Below are positions 15,333 through 41,269 of a stretch of 43,003 nucleotides of DNA, one piece after another (position 1 is the stretch's first letter; the number at the start of each line of letters is the position of its first letter). The stretch spans positions 1 through 43,003 of the forward strand of contig JAKONR010000295.1 of the NCBI GenBank assembly GCA_022701825.1, read 5' to 3'. The translations under genes and the position numbers were made by a program. This DNA comes from Hymenobacteraceae bacterium. GTDB lineage: Bacteria; Bacteroidota; Bacteroidia; Cytophagales; Hymenobacteraceae. Under the pieces are notes generated by a model. That model ran no database searches. It saw nothing but the letters and a program-made list of their open reading frames with translations, and had not been told where the DNA came from.

Positions 15333-15420
15333 GTCATGCTGAGCGCAGCGAAGCATCTCTACCGCTTCGTTGAGCAGTCCGGATGAAGCGATAGAGATGC
15401 TTCGCTGCGCTCAGCATGAC
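15333..15420. repeat. Long perfect hairpin repeat (GTCATGCTGAGCGCAGCGAAGCATCTCT family), copy 1
   Basis: 28-bp arms gtcatgctgagcgcagcgaagcatctct / agagatgcttcgctgcgctcagcatgac are perfectly complementary. Confidence 0.95.
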
Positions 15421-28971: not shown

Positions 28972-30096
28972 TTACGGCTTGAAGGGGTCGGAAAAGCGCT
29001 TGTCGGCGATAAACGTTGAGTCAGTCAGCGTTTTGAGGAAGGCGATAACTTGGCGCTTCTCGGTGGCCGTGAGGCCCATGCGGCCAGGATTGAAAATGGG
29101 GTCGTTGACGCCCTGAATCAGGTTGACATCGAGGCCGGGGCTGTTCATCTGCACATGGTCGGAGTAGTGGTCGAGCACCTGCTCCAGGGTCGTGAAGCGG
29201 CCATCGTGCATGTAGGGCGCCGTGAGGGTGATATTGCGCAGCGTGGGCGCCACAAACTTGCCGTTATCAGCCGGCAGGCCCGTTACGCCGCCCCGGCCAA
29301 GGTCCGTAAAGGTCATATCCAGGCCGTTGTTGAAGAACTGCGCGGCGAAGTTCGACGAGGTTAGCGGCAGCGTGTGGCAGTGAAAGCACTCGGCCCCGCG
29401 CACAATGCGCGGCGAAATGTGGGTGGAATAAAGCTTTAGTCCAGCCAACTCGTCGGCCGAAAGACCCTGCTGGGTTTTAGTGTACTTATCGTAGCGCGAG
29501 TTGCCCGAAATCAGCGTGCGCTCGAACTGGGTGAGCGCCTTCAGTAGCAAATCGCTGGTGATGGTACGGGTGCCAAAAGCCGCCTCAAACAACGGCGGGT
29601 ACGTGGTGGTGTTTTGCAGCTTGCTCACGCCCACGGCCAGCGACTGGTGCATTTCAATCGGGTTCTCGATGGGCTTGTGCGCCTGGGCGTCGAGCGTCGG
29701 AAACGCGCCATCCCAAGTCAGCGTGTTGCTCCACATCACGTTGGCCAGCGACATGGTGCCGCGGGGGTTCGCGATGCCATCAACGCCCACGGCCTTGGCC
29801 AAGCCATCGGTGAAAGCCTTGTTTTGCTGGTGGCACGAGCCGCACGACATCGTGTTATTGCTCGACAGCTTGGTTTCGTAGAACAGCATCCGGCCCAGCG
29901 CCACGCCCTCGTTGGTGAGCGGGTTGTCGGCCGGAATGACGGGAGTGGGGAAGCCCGCTGGCACCACGAGTGTGTAAGGCGTGGGGGCCGGTATCACGGG
30001 GTCGATGGCTTCTTCCTTGTCTTTTTTGCAGCTGCTCAGTGCCGTGCCAGCCAGCAGCAAAATGGAAACCCCGATGTGAGTAAAGCGCCGCACCAT
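28972..30096 (-). CDS. Di-heme cytochrome c peroxidase / MauG-MbnH family lipoprotein
   Basis: Heme motifs CGSCH (MSCGSCHQQNKAFTDG) and CFHCH; TAPYMHDGRFTTLEQVLDHY; lipobox ...AGTALSSCKKDK. Confidence 0.9.
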   Translation of the reverse strand: MVRRFTHIGVSILLLAGTALSSCKKDKEEAIDPVIPAPTPYTLVVPAGFPTPVIPADNPLTNEGVALGRMLFYETKLSSNNTMSCGSCHQQNKAFTDGLAKAVGVDGIANPRGTMSLANVMWSNTLTWDGAFPTLDAQAHKPIENPIEMHQSLAVGVSKLQNTTTYPPLFEAAFGTRTITSDLLLKALTQFERTLISGNSRYDKYTKTQQGLSADELAGLKLYSTHISPRIVRGAECFHCHTLPLTSSNFAAQFFNNGLDMTFTDLGRGGVTGLPADNGKFVAPTLRNITLTAPYMHDGRFTTLEQVLDHYSDHVQMNSPGLDVNLIQGVNDPIFNPGRMGLTATEKRQVIAFLKTLTDSTFIADKRFSDPFKP

Positions 30097-30132: not shown

Positions 30133-31257
30133 CTAGTTTGCGCTCAACTGCATGCCGCGCGGGTTAGTTTCTTGACGGGCCGCGGGCGGCGCAAAGCGCG
30201 GGTTGGTCAGCAGTTCGGTATCGGTGAGGGTAGCCAAAAAGGCGAGTATTTCTCGCTGCTGAACTTCGGTTAGGGCGATACCCAAGCGGCCATCGGGCTG
30301 GCGTAAAAGCGGGTCGAGGGTGCGCGAGGGGCGCACGCCGTAGGCATAGTGGGCGAGCACGTCGGGTAGCGTTTGGAAGCGGCCGTCGTGCATGTAGGGC
30401 GCGGTGCGCGCCACGTTGCGCAGGCTCGGCACCCGGAAGCGCCCCGCATCGGTGGGGGCCAGCGTGATGTGGGCGCGGCCCGAGTCAAGGGGAAATGCCG
30501 TGTCCAGGCCGTTGTTGCGGAACGACTCGTCGGTAAACAAATCGGTGGCGTGGCAGCCACTGCACTTGGCCTGAAATAGCGCCTGCCCGCGCCGCTCGTC
30601 GGCCGACAGCGCGCCGCCCGGCTCGTGGCGCACGTACTGGTCGTAGCGCGAATTAGTAGAGGTGAGGGCCGACGTAAACTGCGCCAACGCCTTGAGGAAC
30701 TGCGGTGTATCAATCTTGCCCGGTCCGTAGACGGCCGCGAAGCGGCGGCGATATTCGGGGTTGGCATTCAGCTTGGCCAGCGCCTCGGCTAGCGGCGTGT
30801 TCATTTCCTGGGCGCTGGTGAGTGGGGCCAGCGCTTGCAGCTCTAGCCCGCGCACGCCGCCGTCGGCCATGAAGCTGCGGTGCCAGGCCAGGTTTTGCAG
30901 CGCCGGCGAGTTGCGGGGGCTGCGGCGGCCGGCCACGCCCACCGCCAGCGCCTGCCCATCGGTGAAAGCGCGCGCCTGCTGGTGGCAGCTCCCGCACGAG
31001 ACCCGCCCGTCGCTCGACAGGCGCGGGTCGTAGAACAGCATCCGGCCCAGCTCGAAAGCCGCTTCATTGGGCTGGTTTTTGGCCACCTCGTACACCGGCG
31101 CCGGGAAGTTGGCGGGCGGCGCGAGCAGCACCGCCGCGGCCGCCGGTTGCCGCCAGTGTGCCACGGCCGCGCTGCCCACCGCCACCAGGGCAGCCAGCAG
31201 GAGCCAGCCCAGTGGCTGGCGCACCCACGTTTTGGGGCTTGGCGCGGCCACGGGCAA
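30133..31257 (-). CDS. Di-heme cytochrome c peroxidase / MbnH-like enzyme
   Basis: Heme motifs CGSCH (VSCGSCHQQARAFTDG) and CSGCH; RTAPYMHDGRFQTLPDVLAHYAYG; N-terminal TM anchor; starts 5 bp after the mbnP-like stop codon. Confidence 0.9.
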   Translation of the reverse strand: MPVAAPSPKTWVRQPLGWLLLAALVAVGSAAVAHWRQPAAAAVLLAPPANFPAPVYEVAKNQPNEAAFELGRMLFYDPRLSSDGRVSCGSCHQQARAFTDGQALAVGVAGRRSPRNSPALQNLAWHRSFMADGGVRGLELQALAPLTSAQEMNTPLAEALAKLNANPEYRRRFAAVYGPGKIDTPQFLKALAQFTSALTSTNSRYDQYVRHEPGGALSADERRGQALFQAKCSGCHATDLFTDESFRNNGLDTAFPLDSGRAHITLAPTDAGRFRVPSLRNVARTAPYMHDGRFQTLPDVLAHYAYGVRPSRTLDPLLRQPDGRLGIALTEVQQREILAFLATLTDTELLTNPRFAPPAARQETNPRGMQLSAN

Positions 31258-31262
31258 CGGGC

Positions 31263-32090
31263 TTAGTTAGTGTTGATTTGGGTGACGCTGAACATGCCGG
31301 CCGCGTAGTTCTGGGCTATTTGTACCGACTGCGCGCTGGGCATGTGCGCGCCCATGAAAGTGCTGAGCGTAACCGGGTTAGGGCCGTCAAATAGCTTCGC
31401 CACGTTGGCTTGCAGTGCGATGGTCGGGGCCTTGTCGGTGCGCACGGTCAGCTTATTGCTGCCGAATGCAGGCGTGGCCGTGACGATGGCATTGGGGGTG
31501 CTGTTATTGCCCCAGCCCCCGATATGGCAGGTGAGCGGCTTCGTGGGGTTGGTCGAGGTCAGCGTGCCTTCCATCTTCAGAAAGATGTGGCCGCTGTTCC
31601 AGGTCCAGTACATATTATAAGCCTGGTTGAGGGCTTCGAGCTTGCCGGTAAAATCGAGCGGGTTGGTGAGGCCAGTTCTTTGGGCATCAACGCCCACGAT
31701 GAAGCTCACGCCGGTGTAGTCGCCCGTCGGCACGTTGGGCACCGTGAAGCTCAGGGTTTTGGCCGTGGCCTGGTCTACCAGAAAGTACGTGTCGGGCGCG
31801 GCGTAGGTCGTGCCGTCGCTTTTCGTAAACTTGATGTTAGACAGGTAATACTCGAACGTGCTGACGGTGAACGTTTCACCGGTCGAGGTAGTGGCGACTG
31901 AGCTATTGAGCACGAGCGGCGTGGGCGGCTGCACGCCCACGACGTTGGTGTTGGGCACCACGTTTTGCACCGTAAAATTGACCGAGCCCGTGCTGGTAGC
32001 TTCGGGCGTATCGCTGTCTTTTTTGCAGCCGCTGAATAGGGCCAGCGGCGCGGCCAGCAGAAAAAGTGCGGAAAGGGTACGGTTTTTCAT
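31263..32090 (-). CDS. MbnP-like copper-binding lipoprotein
   Basis: From ATG at 32088-32090: MKNRTLSALFLLAAPLALFSGCKKD (lipobox); TVSTFEYYLSNIKFTKSDG; MYWTWNSGHIFLKMEGT; adjacent di-heme peroxidase genes. Confidence 0.8.
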   Translation of the reverse strand: MKNRTLSALFLLAAPLALFSGCKKDSDTPEATSTGSVNFTVQNVVPNTNVVGVQPPTPLVLNSSVATTSTGETFTVSTFEYYLSNIKFTKSDGTTYAAPDTYFLVDQATAKTLSFTVPNVPTGDYTGVSFIVGVDAQRTGLTNPLDFTGKLEALNQAYNMYWTWNSGHIFLKMEGTLTSTNPTKPLTCHIGGWGNNSTPNAIVTATPAFGSNKLTVRTDKAPTIALQANVAKLFDGPNPVTLSTFMGAHMPSAQSVQIAQNYAAGMFSVTQINTN

Positions 32091-32347
32091 GAAGCGCAAA
32101 CGTAAGAATGAAGATTCAGCCAACGCCACCGCCCGGTGGCTACCACCTGTTTGCTGGCCGCGTAGGTCGCTTTTTAGGCCACCTCTTGCACACGCGCCAG
32201 CGTCAGAAAGTTCAGCACTAACTACTGCTAAACTAGTGCACTTCGCTGAGTAAGCTGTGAAGCACCAGCTCAGTTTCGACCGAGCCCGTAGCGTAAAGTT
32301 GCAACAGATTGAGCGGATTGTCCTTTTTAAAGCCAAAAAACAGCCTG

Positions 32348-32384: not shown

Positions 32385-32759
32385 GTGAAATCATTTTTCG
32401 CCTATTTGCTGGTGGCCCTGGTGCTGCTGCAAACCTTCAGCCGCGAGCTGTTGGTGGTGGATTTCACGCTCAACCAAGCCACCATCACGGCGCGCTTTTG
32501 CGTAAACAAAGCCCGCCCCGCGCTGCACTGCGACGGTAAGTGCTACTTCGCCAAAAAGCTGAAGCAGCAGGAGGAGCGCGAAAACAAAGCCCCCAGCCCC
32601 CTGAAAGAGCGGCTGGAAATGCTGCCCGCTGCCTTTGGCGGTGGCTGGCAGGCGCCCGCCGTGGCCCGCGTGCCGCAGGCGGCCCAGCGCTACGCACCGC
32701 TGGTGGCGGGGCACTACGCCGCGCCGCTGGGCGCGGTTTTTCACCCGCCTTTAGGCTAA
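32385..32759 (+). CDS. Small secreted or membrane protein with C-x(10)-C-x3-C motif
   Basis: GTG start; hydrophobic N-terminus MKSFFAYLLVALVLLQTFS; FCVNKARPALHCDGKCYFAKKLKQQ. Confidence 0.65.
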   Translation: MKSFFAYLLVALVLLQTFSRELLVVDFTLNQATITARFCVNKARPALHCDGKCYFAKKLKQQEERENKAPSPLKERLEMLPAAFGGGWQAPAVARVPQAAQRYAPLVAGHYAAPLGAVFHPPLG

Positions 32760-32777
32760 AACAACCTTCGTGGGAAT

Positions 32778-32846
32778 GGTGTAGGGCACGCTTTAGCTTG
32801 CCTTTTTGAAGCTATGCGCGTGGCAAGCTAAAGCTTACCCTACACC
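32778..32846. repeat. Inverted repeat (TAGGGTAAGCTTTAGCTTGCC family), copy 2
   Basis: ggtgtagggcacgctttagcttgcc / ggcaagctaaagcttaccctacacc, 23 of 25 complementary. Confidence 0.8.
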
Positions 32847-32874
32847 CTTGTGTTTTTAGCTTAATCAACAGGGG

Positions 32875-35211
32875 ATGAAATCATTATTTATTACTGCCGG
32901 GCTGGCCGCGACCAGCCTGAGCAGCGCCTACGCGCAGCAAATCGGGCTGCGCGGTACCGTTTTGGATGCCCAAACCCAACAAGCCCTGCCGGGCGTCACG
33001 GTCATGGTGCCGGGCACCAGCCTGGGTACTACCACCGATGCGCAAGGCCGCTTCGATTTGCCCGCCACTGATGCGCGGGAGCTAACCATAACATTTATAG
33101 GATATAACGCGCAAAAGGTGCGCGTGCCCGTCGATGGCCGCCCGCTCACGGTGCGGCTCGAAGCGGCGCCCGTGTCGCTGCAAGGCGTGGTGGTGTCGGC
33201 CAGCCGCGAGCAGGAAAAGCGTACCGAGGCCCCGGTCGCCATCAGCCAGGTTTCGCCGCAGCTCATTGCCGACACCAAGGCCACGGCCCCGTACCAGCTG
33301 CTCAACAAAGTGGCGGGCGTGTACATGGTGAATCTCGGCAACGAGCAGCACATGATGGCTATTCGCCAGCCCATTAGCACCAACGCGGTGTACCTGTATT
33401 TGGAGGACGGCTTGCCCATCCGGCCCATCGGTATCTTCAACCACAACGCGCTGTACGAGATAAACCAGGCGGGCGTGCGCAGCATCGAAGTGGTGAAGGG
33501 GCCGGCCTCGTCGCTCTACGGCTCCAACGCCATTGGCGGGGCCATCAACTTCCTGAGCCAGCGGCCGACGCCGCTGCCCACGGCGGGCGTGTCGGTGCAG
33601 GGCGACAATTTTGGCTACCGCCGCGCCGATGCCAGCGCTAGCGGCACGATGGGCAAGCTGGGGCTGTACGCGGGCGGCTACGCGGCGCGCCAACGAACTG
33701 GCTGGCAAGATTATACGAATTTCGATAAGCAGTCGTGGACGTTGCGGGCTGACTACGCTTTCAGCCCCAAAACCCGGCTTATTGGCACCGGTACCTACAA
33801 TTACCTCAACACCCAAACGCCCGGCACGCTCGACAGCACCCGCTTCTACAGCCGCCGCTACCAGAGCAACAACCGCTTCACTAACCGCGTGGTGACGGCC
33901 GTGCGCGCCAGCCTGCGCCTGGAGCACGAGTGGAGCCCAAGCCAGCAAACGGCCCTCACCGGCTTTTATCGCTACAACTCGACGGGCCAGCTGCCGAGCT
34001 ACTTCATCAGCGACGTGCGGCTGAATGGCGTGTACCAAAGCTCGAGTGGGCAGGTCAACAATCAGTCCTTCAACAGCTACGGGGCGCTGGTGCAGCACCG
34101 CGCCGACCTGGGTTTTCTGAATTCGCGGCTCATCGTGGGCGGGTATTTCGACTACAGCCCTAGCACGTATTGGGCGCGCTTTCTGAGCATTCAGAAAGAC
34201 GTGGCCAATAACTACTATACCGGCTACACCGACACGGGCCGGCTGCTCGACGACTACCAAACCGACCTATACAACGCGGCGGCCTACGCCCAATACGAGG
34301 TGCAAGCCACTGAAAATCTGCGCGTAGTGGGCGGCGTGCGCTACGACCGGGTGCGGTACAACTTCGTGAACCACCTCAGCGGCAGCCAGACGTCCAAAAA
34401 GGCGGCCCAGAACAATACATACAACATCGTGGCCCCCAAACTGGGTCTGACTTATGCGCTCGGCGCCAGCCAGGGCGTATACGCCAACTTCAGCACCGGT
34501 TTTCAGCCGCCCGAAACGGGCAGCTTGTATAGCTCGCGCCAGCAGATTGAGCTGAAGCAGGCCAATTTCAAGAACTACGAGGCCGGCGGCTGGGTGGCGC
34601 TGTTTGAGCGCAAGCTGTACGCCGACGTGAGCCTTTACCAGATGGAGGGACGCAACGAGATTGTGAGTGTCTTGCAGGCCGACAACACGACGCAGAGCGA
34701 AAACGTGGGCGCTACGCGCCACCAAGGCGTAGAATACACGTTGACTTATGCGCCTATTTCGGAGGTGAATTTCCGCCTCAGCGGTACCAATGCCCGGCAC
34801 AGCTACGTGGAATACAGTGAAGTAGTGCAGGGCCGCAACCGCGACTACTCGGGCAACCGCATGCTGAACGCGCCCAACTGGATTGCCAATGCGGAGGTGT
34901 TCTACAAGCCGCGTTTTGTGTCCGGCGCCCGCCTCGGGCTGGAGTACCAGCGCGTCGGGAAATACTACACCGACCCGGCCAATACCAAAACCTACGCCGG
35001 CTACCACCTGCTAAACCTGCGCCTGGGCTACCGCCTGCCGCAAGCCAGCCTGCGCGGCCTAGAGCTGTGGGCCAACGTGGTAAACCTCAGCAACGAGCTG
35101 TACGCCACCACGGTAACGACCAACCAATACGGCACCACCTACCAGGCCGCCGCGCCGCGCACCTACACGCTGGGCCTGGGCTACGCCCTCGCGGCCAAGG
35201 CTCGGGACTGA
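32875..35211 (+). CDS. TonB-dependent receptor with carboxypeptidase-like N-terminal domain
   Basis: GLRGTVLDAQTQQALPGVTVMVPGTSLGTTTDAQGRFDLP, plug VKGPASSLYGSNAIGGAINFLSQ and a C-terminal beta-barrel. Confidence 0.93.
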   Translation: MKSLFITAGLAATSLSSAYAQQIGLRGTVLDAQTQQALPGVTVMVPGTSLGTTTDAQGRFDLPATDARELTITFIGYNAQKVRVPVDGRPLTVRLEAAPVSLQGVVVSASREQEKRTEAPVAISQVSPQLIADTKATAPYQLLNKVAGVYMVNLGNEQHMMAIRQPISTNAVYLYLEDGLPIRPIGIFNHNALYEINQAGVRSIEVVKGPASSLYGSNAIGGAINFLSQRPTPLPTAGVSVQGDNFGYRRADASASGTMGKLGLYAGGYAARQRTGWQDYTNFDKQSWTLRADYAFSPKTRLIGTGTYNYLNTQTPGTLDSTRFYSRRYQSNNRFTNRVVTAVRASLRLEHEWSPSQQTALTGFYRYNSTGQLPSYFISDVRLNGVYQSSSGQVNNQSFNSYGALVQHRADLGFLNSRLIVGGYFDYSPSTYWARFLSIQKDVANNYYTGYTDTGRLLDDYQTDLYNAAAYAQYEVQATENLRVVGGVRYDRVRYNFVNHLSGSQTSKKAAQNNTYNIVAPKLGLTYALGASQGVYANFSTGFQPPETGSLYSSRQQIELKQANFKNYEAGGWVALFERKLYADVSLYQMEGRNEIVSVLQADNTTQSENVGATRHQGVEYTLTYAPISEVNFRLSGTNARHSYVEYSEVVQGRNRDYSGNRMLNAPNWIANAEVFYKPRFVSGARLGLEYQRVGKYYTDPANTKTYAGYHLLNLRLGYRLPQASLRGLELWANVVNLSNELYATTVTTNQYGTTYQAAAPRTYTLGLGYALAAKARD

Positions 35212-35215
35212 GCAT

Positions 35216-35281
35216 GTAAAACGGAGTGGCACTCCGTTTTTACGGTAGTAGAGCAAAAAACGGAGTGCCACTCCGTTTTAC
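35216..35281. repeat. Pair of AAAACGGAGTGSCACTCCGTTTT palindromes in inverted orientation
   Basis: gtaaaacggagtggcactccgttttt and aaaaaacggagtgccactccgttttac. Each is self-complementary apart from a central base, and the two are reverse complements. Confidence 0.9.
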
Positions 35282-35293
35282 ATTCTTGCTTAT

Positions 35294-36940
35294 ATGGCTA
35301 GTAATCAATATTATATCAAAGAGCCGGCCGTGGCTGCGCCCACGCGCCCGGCCTCGCCCGTGCGGCGCTTCGTGGGCCGCTACATGTACCGCTGGCACCG
35401 GCTGCTGGGTTTGCTCACGGTGGTGCCGGTGGTGCTGTGGGCGCTCAGCGGCCTCTCGCACCCGTTGATGTCCAACCTGTTGCGGCCCACCATCGCGCAC
35501 GAAACGGTGCCCGCGCCGCCGCTCACGGCGGCCGCCCTGGCGGTGCCCGTGGCGCAGGTGCTGGCGTGGCACCATTTGCCCACCGTGCAAAACGTGCGCG
35601 TGGTGTGGGCTAATAAACAGGCTTATTACCAGGTTACTACGGCTTCGGGCAAGCTGCGCTACTTTGGCACGGCCGATGGCCGCGAGCTGCCCGGTGGCGA
35701 CCGTGCTTACGCCGAAGCGGTGGCCCGCTACCTGCTGGCCGACTCGACCAGCGCCGTGGCCAGCGCCGAGCGCCTGACCCGCTACACGGCCGATTACAAG
35801 TTTATCAATCGCCTGCTGCCAGTCTGGAAAATCACATTCGCCCGCCCCGATGGCATGGCCGTGTTCATCGAAACCGGGCACAGTCGCCTGGGCACGTTTA
35901 ATAACCACGCTCGCGCCACCTTTTTGTGGGTGTTCGGGATGATGCACAACTGGGATTTTCTCGACGGGCTGCCCCGGCCGCTGCACCTAGGTATTATGTT
36001 GGTTTTCACGACTATAATCTGGCTGTCGGCCCTGAGCGGCTTGGTTATTTACGGCTTCGTGCGGGGCAAAATGCGGCAGCCGCGCTCGGCGCAGGATGCC
36101 GTGGGCTGGCTGCGCAAGCGGCACCGCACGCTGGGGCTGTGGGTGGCGTTCGTCACGTTCACGTTTGCCCTCAGCGCCTCGTACCATCTGTGGCAAAAGT
36201 TCACGCCCGACCGCCGCGACGACGTGGCGCGGGTATCGCTGTTTGCCGCTAAAGACCTGACAATACCTCTAGCTGGTTCGTTGGCTTATGGCGACCTTGC
36301 TACCCTTCCGATAACGCAGGTATCGCTGGCGCGGGTGGGCGGCCAGCCTTACTACCGCTTGGTGAGCAAGGCGGCCGACGGCCACCCCACCGTGCAGTAC
36401 CGCAGCACCCGCGACGGCCAACTGCTGCCCGACGGCGAGTTTCGCTACGCCGCCGAACTCGGCCAGGAATTCATGGCCAAGCTGAATACCACCGTGCCCG
36501 GCGCGGCCAGCGCCACCAACCCCGAAAGCCTATCGGCCGCCGCCGACTGCTGCGAAGCGCCCGGCCTCGTGGCCGAAACTAAAACGACTATTGGCACGCC
36601 GGCCGCCAGCCCGGCACCCGCGCAGGCTAATTTGGCTAGCCCCGAGCTGGTTACGAAGTTCGCCGGTGAGTATGGCTTCGTCAATAAGCGCCTGCCCGTG
36701 GTGAAGCTGGCCTTTGCCGGCGCGGGCCACCCGGCGCTGTACGTGGAGCCGGCCACCGGCCGCCTGGCTGCCTACGTCACCGACGATGCCCGGCGCGAAG
36801 GGCTGTCGTTCGCCGTGCTGCACAAGTTCTTTTTGATGGACTGGGCCGGTAAAACCGTGCGCGACTTCGTTGCCATGTTTTCGGCGCTGGGCGTGCTGGT
36901 AGTCACGCTCTACGGGCTGGTGCTGCTGCTGCGCCGGTAA
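35294..36940 (+). CDS. PepSY-associated transmembrane protein
   Basis: YMYRWHRLLGLLTVVPVVLWALSGLSHPLMSNL, repeated PepSY-like segments, AGKTVRDFVAMFSALGVLVVTLYGLVLLLRR; follows the TonB receptor. Confidence 0.88.
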   Translation: MASNQYYIKEPAVAAPTRPASPVRRFVGRYMYRWHRLLGLLTVVPVVLWALSGLSHPLMSNLLRPTIAHETVPAPPLTAAALAVPVAQVLAWHHLPTVQNVRVVWANKQAYYQVTTASGKLRYFGTADGRELPGGDRAYAEAVARYLLADSTSAVASAERLTRYTADYKFINRLLPVWKITFARPDGMAVFIETGHSRLGTFNNHARATFLWVFGMMHNWDFLDGLPRPLHLGIMLVFTTIIWLSALSGLVIYGFVRGKMRQPRSAQDAVGWLRKRHRTLGLWVAFVTFTFALSASYHLWQKFTPDRRDDVARVSLFAAKDLTIPLAGSLAYGDLATLPITQVSLARVGGQPYYRLVSKAADGHPTVQYRSTRDGQLLPDGEFRYAAELGQEFMAKLNTTVPGAASATNPESLSAAADCCEAPGLVAETKTTIGTPAASPAPAQANLASPELVTKFAGEYGFVNKRLPVVKLAFAGAGHPALYVEPATGRLAAYVTDDARREGLSFAVLHKFFLMDWAGKTVRDFVAMFSALGVLVVTLYGLVLLLRR

Positions 36941-40445: not shown

Positions 40446-40540
40446 TAAAAGCGAGTCATGCTGAACGCAGTAAGCATCTCTACCGCCTCGTTAAACGGTG
40501 CGGTAGAGATGCTTACTGCGTTCAGCATGACTCGCTTTTA
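40446..40540. repeat. Long perfect hairpin repeat (GTCATGCTGAACGCAGTAAGCATCTCTACCG), copy 2
   Basis: 40-bp arms 40446-40485 and 40501-40540 are perfectly complementary with a 15-nt loop. Confidence 0.95.
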
Positions 40541-41171: not shown

Positions 41172-41269
41172 GTCATGCAGAGCGCAGCGAAGCATCTCGC
41201 GTGGCGCAGTAATTCCAGACGTTTGATTTTACTGTGCTACGCGAGATGCTTCGCTGCGCTCTGCATGAC
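41172..41269. repeat. Long hairpin repeat (GTCATGCAGAGCGCAGCGAAGCATCTCGCGT), copy 3
   Basis: 41-nt arms (41172-41212 and 41229-41269) with two mismatches, both G.U-compatible in RNA. Confidence 0.93.

Follow-up and report, generated by a model that had tools for sequence, protein, structure and literature searches.

The window, by which we mean the whole 43,003-nucleotide stretch of Hymenobacteraceae DNA that was analyzed, encodes an MbnP-family lipoprotein, two di-heme enzymes of the MauG/MbnH type, and a divergent operon consisting of a short leader gene, a TonB-dependent receptor, and a PepSY_TM membrane protein. The explanation that best accounts for this locus, and that we consider likely, is an MbnP-MbnH kynurenine-copper module facing a copper-acquisition-like operon with a leader sensor. 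The MbnP-MbnH pair represents an already known system in a form that is common among Bacteroidota; the leader, which lies outside the region treated in the first-pass annotation, is the less expected and the most interesting part.

In the mechanism that we propose, the genes at 31263-32090, 30133-31257, and 28972-30096 would form a Bacteroidota MbnP-MbnH module in which MbnP resides in the envelope as a lipoprotein. With H2O2 as the oxidant, MbnH1 and possibly also MbnH2 would convert W162 (the first of the two WxW tryptophans in MbnP) to kynurenine, which would join a Met and a His, most likely M160 and H189, to complete a Cu(I) site. The module and the copper-acquisition-like leader-TonB-PepSY_TM operon diverge from a shared intergenic region. 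The Cys motif of the leader, once emerged, would bind copper and alter stalling at the C-terminal Pro-Pro, with a resulting change in receptor expression.

Gene organization of the locus

The mbnP gene (31263..32090, minus strand) encodes a 275-amino-acid lipoprotein of family PF20243 with lipobox Cys22. The automatic call had placed the start of this open reading frame at 32336, which was rejected as an over-extension; the ATG at 32090 yields a lipoprotein signal whose lipobox Cys is residue 22. Next comes the gene for MbnH1, a di-heme MauG/MbnH-type enzyme of 374 amino acids (30133..31257, minus strand). The first-pass annotation had reported a 5-bp gap between the two genes, and this was confirmed, with the MbnP stop ending at 31263 and a TTG start of the enzyme at 31257; the gap is 11 bp instead should MbnH1 start at the in-frame GTG two codons further on. 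The motifs that it had quoted were also found in place, FEYYLSNIKF and MYWTWNSGHIFLKMEG in the open reading frame at 31263-32090 (minus strand) and CGSCH and CSGCH in that at 30133-31257 (minus strand). It had overlooked MbnH2 (28972..30096, minus strand), a second di-heme enzyme directly downstream of MbnH1 that has a lipoprotein-like N terminus and belongs to a separate deep paralogue lineage, as well as the divergent leader-TonB-PepSY operon (32385-36940).

The operon opens with the leader gene (32385..32759, plus strand), a candidate copper-sensing arrest peptide of 124 amino acids with a GTG start, a hydrophobic N terminus (signal peptide judged by eye), C39, and a CDGKC motif at residues 49 to 53. 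The gene for the TonB-dependent receptor (32875..35211, plus strand; 778 amino acids, with a CarbopepD_reg_2 domain) lies 115 bp downstream and is followed by that for the PepSY_TM membrane protein (35294..36940, plus strand; 548 amino acids). By sequence the receptor resembles siderophore-type receptors, and no solved relative of the PepSY_TM protein was found by sequence. The order of leader, TonB receptor, and PepSY_TM protein on one strand was found in the window and in loci L230, L235, L241, L252, and L253, and Pfam domains confirm the receptor and the PepSY_TM protein behind the leader in L230, L235, and L241. The genome is Hymenobacter-like, with Hymenobacter supplying the named sequences nearest to this MbnP, and the locus adjoins ftsZ. 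The full arrangement, PepSY, receptor, and leader, then MbnP, MbnH1, MbnH2, and ftsZ, is kept in H. setariae (L252) and Hymenobacter sp. BT559 (L253).

A hairpin in the gap between the leader and the TonB receptor gene (32775-32849; RNA fold z, -5.6) was considered as an attenuator and dropped, as it is a genome-wide palindromic repeat: about 200 half-sites of its arm (GGCAAGCTAAAGC, at most 1 mismatch) occur in the genome versus 6 for the reversed control. An Rfam search found nothing. Further long inverted repeats lie at 15333-15420, 40446-40540, and 41172-41269; two have the common core GCGCAGCGAAGCATCTC and are probably another dispersed palindrome family.

A leader family with a fixed Cys-to-Pro-Pro distance

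All 116 distinct members of the leader family contain CxGxC (C49-C53 in the window; 32529..32543, plus strand) and a Pro-Pro within the last 13 residues (P121-P122 in the window, in FHPPLG-stop, two residues short of the C terminus; 32745..32750, plus strand), although the leader HMM was trained on family members and some selection for these two features is possible; a Pro-Pro so placed is expected in about 9% from shuffling. Across the 116 leaders, the spacing between CxGxC and Pro-Pro is 66 ± 1.8 residues, and the Pro-Pro is mostly preceded by H, R, or Q, and these in turn by F. The sole invariant columns of a 44-row alignment are C39, C49, G51, C53, P121, and P122, and dN/dS values of about 0.17 to 0.28 between the window leader and three relatives indicate purifying selection.

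The window leader has no Pfam match even at an E value of 10, and eight members of the family gave no credible Pfam match. The family was detected in 134 of 247 genomes of the class, with PF11162 (DUF2946) present in 2 of 149, and occurs also in other classes of the phylum. Leaders head MbnP(-MbnH) operons or TonB receptor operons. Among loci fetched for MbnP only, 49 of 130 MbnPs have a same-strand leader no more than 2.5 kb upstream. The 40 loci that were retrieved for their leader contain 44 leaders, of which 43 are followed by a same-strand gene; within three genes of the leader there is a TonB receptor in 18 cases and an MbnP in 12 of the 44; in L215, Pfam identified a YtkA-like protein and a receptor behind the leader.

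In Bordetella pertussis, the gene order is cruR-bfrG(crtA)-bp2921(crpH), with cruR being a copper-responsive upstream open reading frame (PMC9426467). CrtA is an importer of copper chelates (PMC12914433), CrpH supports heme-copper oxidase function (PMC13038864), and CruR arrests in vitro at RAPP (PMC12992588). By analogy, the leader described here is probably a nascent-chain metal sensor, because its terminal Pro-Pro, its Cys motif at a fixed distance, its hydrophobic N terminus, and its place as the first gene of a metal-related operon are features of CruR and CutF, and the window receptor may likewise carry copper. Given the known lengths of the ribosomal tunnel and the channel, a spacing of 66 residues would, as a rough estimate, put the Cys motif at about the distal end of the translocon by the time the Pro-Pro is decoded.

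A conserved Cys cluster, a hydrophobic N terminus, and purifying selection would also suit a small membrane-anchored, copper-binding envelope protein that regulates nothing. We regard this as rather unlikely: apart from Cys, the invariant residues are the Gly of CxGxC and prolines at the extreme C terminus at a fixed distance, and the leader opens its operon, followed by a same-strand gene (43/44), traits of an arrest leader and not of a chaperone. With the leader read as a sensor, a broader proposal seems to us evenly balanced, namely, that Bacteroidota own a large family of co-translational copper sensors, in which the CxGxC of an exported leader, 66 residues before an F[H/R/Q]PP arrest site, arrives at the far side of the translocon just as stalling occurs, reads envelope copper, and controls MbnP-MbnH and receptors for copper chelates, and that the Hymenobacter MbnPs with a WxM motif (see below) are natural versions without enzyme-made kynurenine. 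If true, this would extend nascent-chain copper sensing into Bacteroidota, and uncharacterized TonB receptors of this phylum would gain a testable link to copper.

Two further Cys-rich protein types were noted in these loci. The 682-amino-acid TonB receptors that follow the leader in L215, L220, L225, and L238 have a Cys-rich segment near the N terminus (CDCVGECSC or a similar sequence) that may be a metal site. Proteins of about 300 to 390 amino acids with CDxCGC or CDICGCFMGITPYDNQS near the N terminus recur behind MbnP/MbnH or the leader in L037, L039, L050, L099, and L228, and the members tried gave no credible Pfam match.

The MbnP lipoprotein and its candidate copper site

The assignment to the MbnP family, which the first-pass annotation had proposed from short motifs, is borne out by the Pfam domain search (PF20243; E value, 1.1e-45; 156.3 bits versus a gathering score of 27) and by structure. 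The AlphaFold2 model of the protein (pLDDT, 89; built on 74 sequences) matches all six chains of 7l6g (E values, 6e-7 to 9e-6; probability, 1.00); the next-best PDB chain has an E value of 0.17, leaving 7l6g as the only significant match. The TM-scores are modest at 0.43 to 0.52, with about 12% identity in the structural alignment. A phmmer search with this MbnP as the lone query found no solved relative, and the 74-sequence profile reaches 7l6g weakly by sequence (E value, 0.011), aligning GMxWxW and the HxG segment after it with that structure.

The structure 7l6g is the MbnP of Methylosinus trichosporium, and M160 and H189 are matched to it as candidate ligands. The 2021 MbnP paper reportedly describes a copper site in which a His and a Met are joined by a kynurenine that derives from the first WxW tryptophan. 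The residues that would correspond to such a site, for which an oxidizable Trp had been suggested earlier in the YWTW segment, are present: M160, W162, W164, and H189 align with M147, W149, W151, and H182 of 7l6g. The segment M160-Y-W162-T-W164 (31599..31613, minus strand) holds the candidate Met ligand and the WxW motif, with W162 as the candidate kynurenine precursor, and H189 (31524..31526, minus strand), the best-conserved His in the family, is the candidate Cu ligand aligned with H182. Among the 74 aligned Bacteroidota MbnPs, M160 is conserved in 71, W162 and W164 in all 74, and H189 in 66. The four-Cys motif of the Methylosinus type is absent; the lipobox Cys is the sole conserved Cys, and the next best Cys column reaches 6/74.

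The protein scores below the NCBIfam equivalog cutoff of TIGR04052 (46.3 versus 140 bits). As it also lacks the four-Cys motif, it is a divergent branch of the MbnP family; both MbnP and MbnH of the window fall below the NCBI equivalog cutoffs. The window MbnP is a probable copper-holding lipoprotein, and kynurenine chemistry at W162 appears to be the best reading of its conserved site.

Two di-heme enzymes of the MbnH type

The neighboring di-heme peroxidase of the first-pass annotation proved to be a member of PF03150 (CCP_MauG; E value, 3.4e-52), as did MbnH2 (1.6e-53), and both CXXCH heme sites are present in each enzyme. Those of MbnH1 are CGSCH (C88-H92; 30982..30996, minus strand) and CSGCH (C232-H236; 30550..30564, minus strand). 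The clade of the enzymes, on which the suggested MbnH-like identity depended, is not set apart from MbnH: the MbnH model (TIGR04039) gave 238 and 271 bits and the MauG model (TIGR03791) 185 and 169 bits, and TIGR04039 is the best-scoring model for both enzymes even though neither its cutoff (363) nor that of TIGR03791 (444) was reached. A FastTree phylogeny of 115 sequences sets MbnH1 apart from MbnH2: the two lie in distinct lineages, where each groups with its counterpart from L097 and L121 (support, 0.97 and 1.00).

The nearest solved relative of MbnH1 is 6e1c (2.6e-52), an entry titled "Di-heme enzyme" that is presumably the MbnH of Methylosinus; classical peroxidases follow at 1e-40 (3o5c) and MauG at 5e-24. 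The match to 3o5c and the membership of the CcP/MauG superfamily agree with an alternative in which the two enzymes serve as ordinary periplasmic peroxidases for H2O2 detoxification and MbnP is a mere neighbor whose unmodified residues bind copper or some other ligand. We consider this unlikely. Where 3o5c carries its axial Met, MbnH1, MbnH2, and 6e1c have Tyr (Y304 in MbnH1; 30346..30348, minus strand), and the Tyr is invariant among 29 homologues; the excess of the MbnH-model over the MauG-model scores points the same way, as does the distribution of the WxW motif.

Co-occurrence of WxW and MbnH

The fetched loci hold 143 MbnPs, and an MbnH no more than 3.5 kb away (here called linked) was found for 100 of the 121 with WxW versus 3 of the 22 without it (Fisher P of about 6e-10, uncorrected for shared ancestry). 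In two of these three WxW-less cases, the MbnH belongs to another MbnP of the same locus. The MbnP of L115 (7214-7957; NMAWPDQMGGGY) is a real exception and the only WxW-less protein that has an adjacent MbnH of its own. The genomes of all 21 WxW loci without a linked MbnH encode MbnH elsewhere (21/21).

Of the 22 WxW-less MbnPs, those of 8 loci form a Hymenobacter clade with WxM (support, 0.98) and those of 12 loci a second clade (support, 0.99); no MbnH was found within 400 bp in either. The WxM group retains the first Trp, at the W162 position, and has lost the second; the His is also retained and mostly the Met. That W162 persists in MbnPs without an adjacent MbnH is a point in favor of unmodified ligands and ordinary peroxidases, and since the first Trp is kept in WxM, conservation of W162 alone is no proof of oxidation. 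The strong co-occurrence of WxW with a linked MbnH argues against that alternative, and because it is the second Trp that WxM lost, the co-occurrence backs a functional link without telling which Trp is oxidized. Judged from their sequences, WxM MbnPs may hold copper without the kynurenine modification. One locus, L109 (G394:C39), has two MbnPs, one with WTW and an adjacent MbnH and the other with WDM and no MbnH of its own, and thus offers a natural comparison.

It is improbable that the kynurenine site forms and serves another metal or a redox role instead of copper storage or delivery: CutF-like leaders with a His-rich motif have been reported from nickel and cobalt contexts too (PMC9973294), but the leader motif described here is Cys-based, and the receptor and PepSY_TM protein fit the copper-linked crtA-crpH order (PMC12914433, PMC13038864).

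Distribution in Bacteroidota

The first-pass annotation had implied that such a pair is a rarity, which does not hold: MbnP is encoded in 179 of the 247 sampled genomes of the class and in 96 of the 151 genomes of the family, and MbnP-MbnH pairs outside methanobactin operons were already described in 2013 (PMC3621798). A link to methanobactin in this genome was considered and rejected, as its one PF05114 gene is on another contig, beside a short open reading frame ending in CPGCGLG, and looks like part of a different peptide system. This PF05114 (MbnB/TglH/ChrH) gene (L262, G000:C77, 907-2325) follows the short open reading frame, whose product ends in NCPGCGLG, and the two may represent a modified-peptide system. 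If the MbnP-MbnH reading is true, enzyme-made kynurenine copper sites would be routine in a major environmental phylum and not a specialty of methanotrophs, and the split of Hymenobacter MbnPs into WxW and WxM would be a natural control for the effect of the modification.

Comparison with known systems

The window proteins share with MbnP and MbnH of Methylosinus trichosporium OB3b (7l6g, 6e1c) a common fold, the WxW motif, the Met and His positions, and an adjacent di-heme enzyme with Tyr at the axial position. They differ in that identity is about 12%, the four-Cys motif is missing, MbnP is a lipoprotein, the MbnH paralogues are in tandem, and no methanobactin operon adjoins. The methanotroph systems MopE/SACCP and CorA/CorB likewise combine a copper protein with a di-heme peroxidase-like enzyme, and MopE contains kynurenine; MopE and CorA are reported to have no marked similarity in sequence to MbnP (PMC3621798). 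MauG, of tryptophan tryptophylquinone biosynthesis, belongs to the same di-heme superfamily, but its substrate differs, and the MauG model scores lower with the window enzymes.

The window leader has the traits by which CutF-like proteins were operationally recognized, with fewer than 150 amino acids, a hydrophobic N terminus, a PP in the last 15 residues, and the next same-strand gene within less than 1,000 nucleotides (PMC9973294). That study counts many Bacteroidota among CutF-like proteins, which, together with these traits, counts against the novelty of the leader; no link of CutF-like proteins to MbnP/MbnH was found in that main text (PMC9973294).

Unlike CruR of B. pertussis, the window leader does not match DUF2946; it has CxGxC in place of CXXC and F[H/R/Q]PP in place of RAPP, and its motifs are separated by 66 residues as against 45. 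A 2025 survey of RAPP/RGPP leaders found the copper-related ones missing from Bacteroidota (PMC12992588), and the present family, with F[H/R/Q]PP, would have escaped a search by that motif. The window receptor is likened to CrtA by its place in the gene order. Both the window operon and cruR-crtA-crpH start with a small exported leader that carries a Cys motif plus a terminal Pro-Pro, and both continue with a TonB receptor and a PepSY_TM protein (PMC9426467, PMC12914433, PMC13038864).
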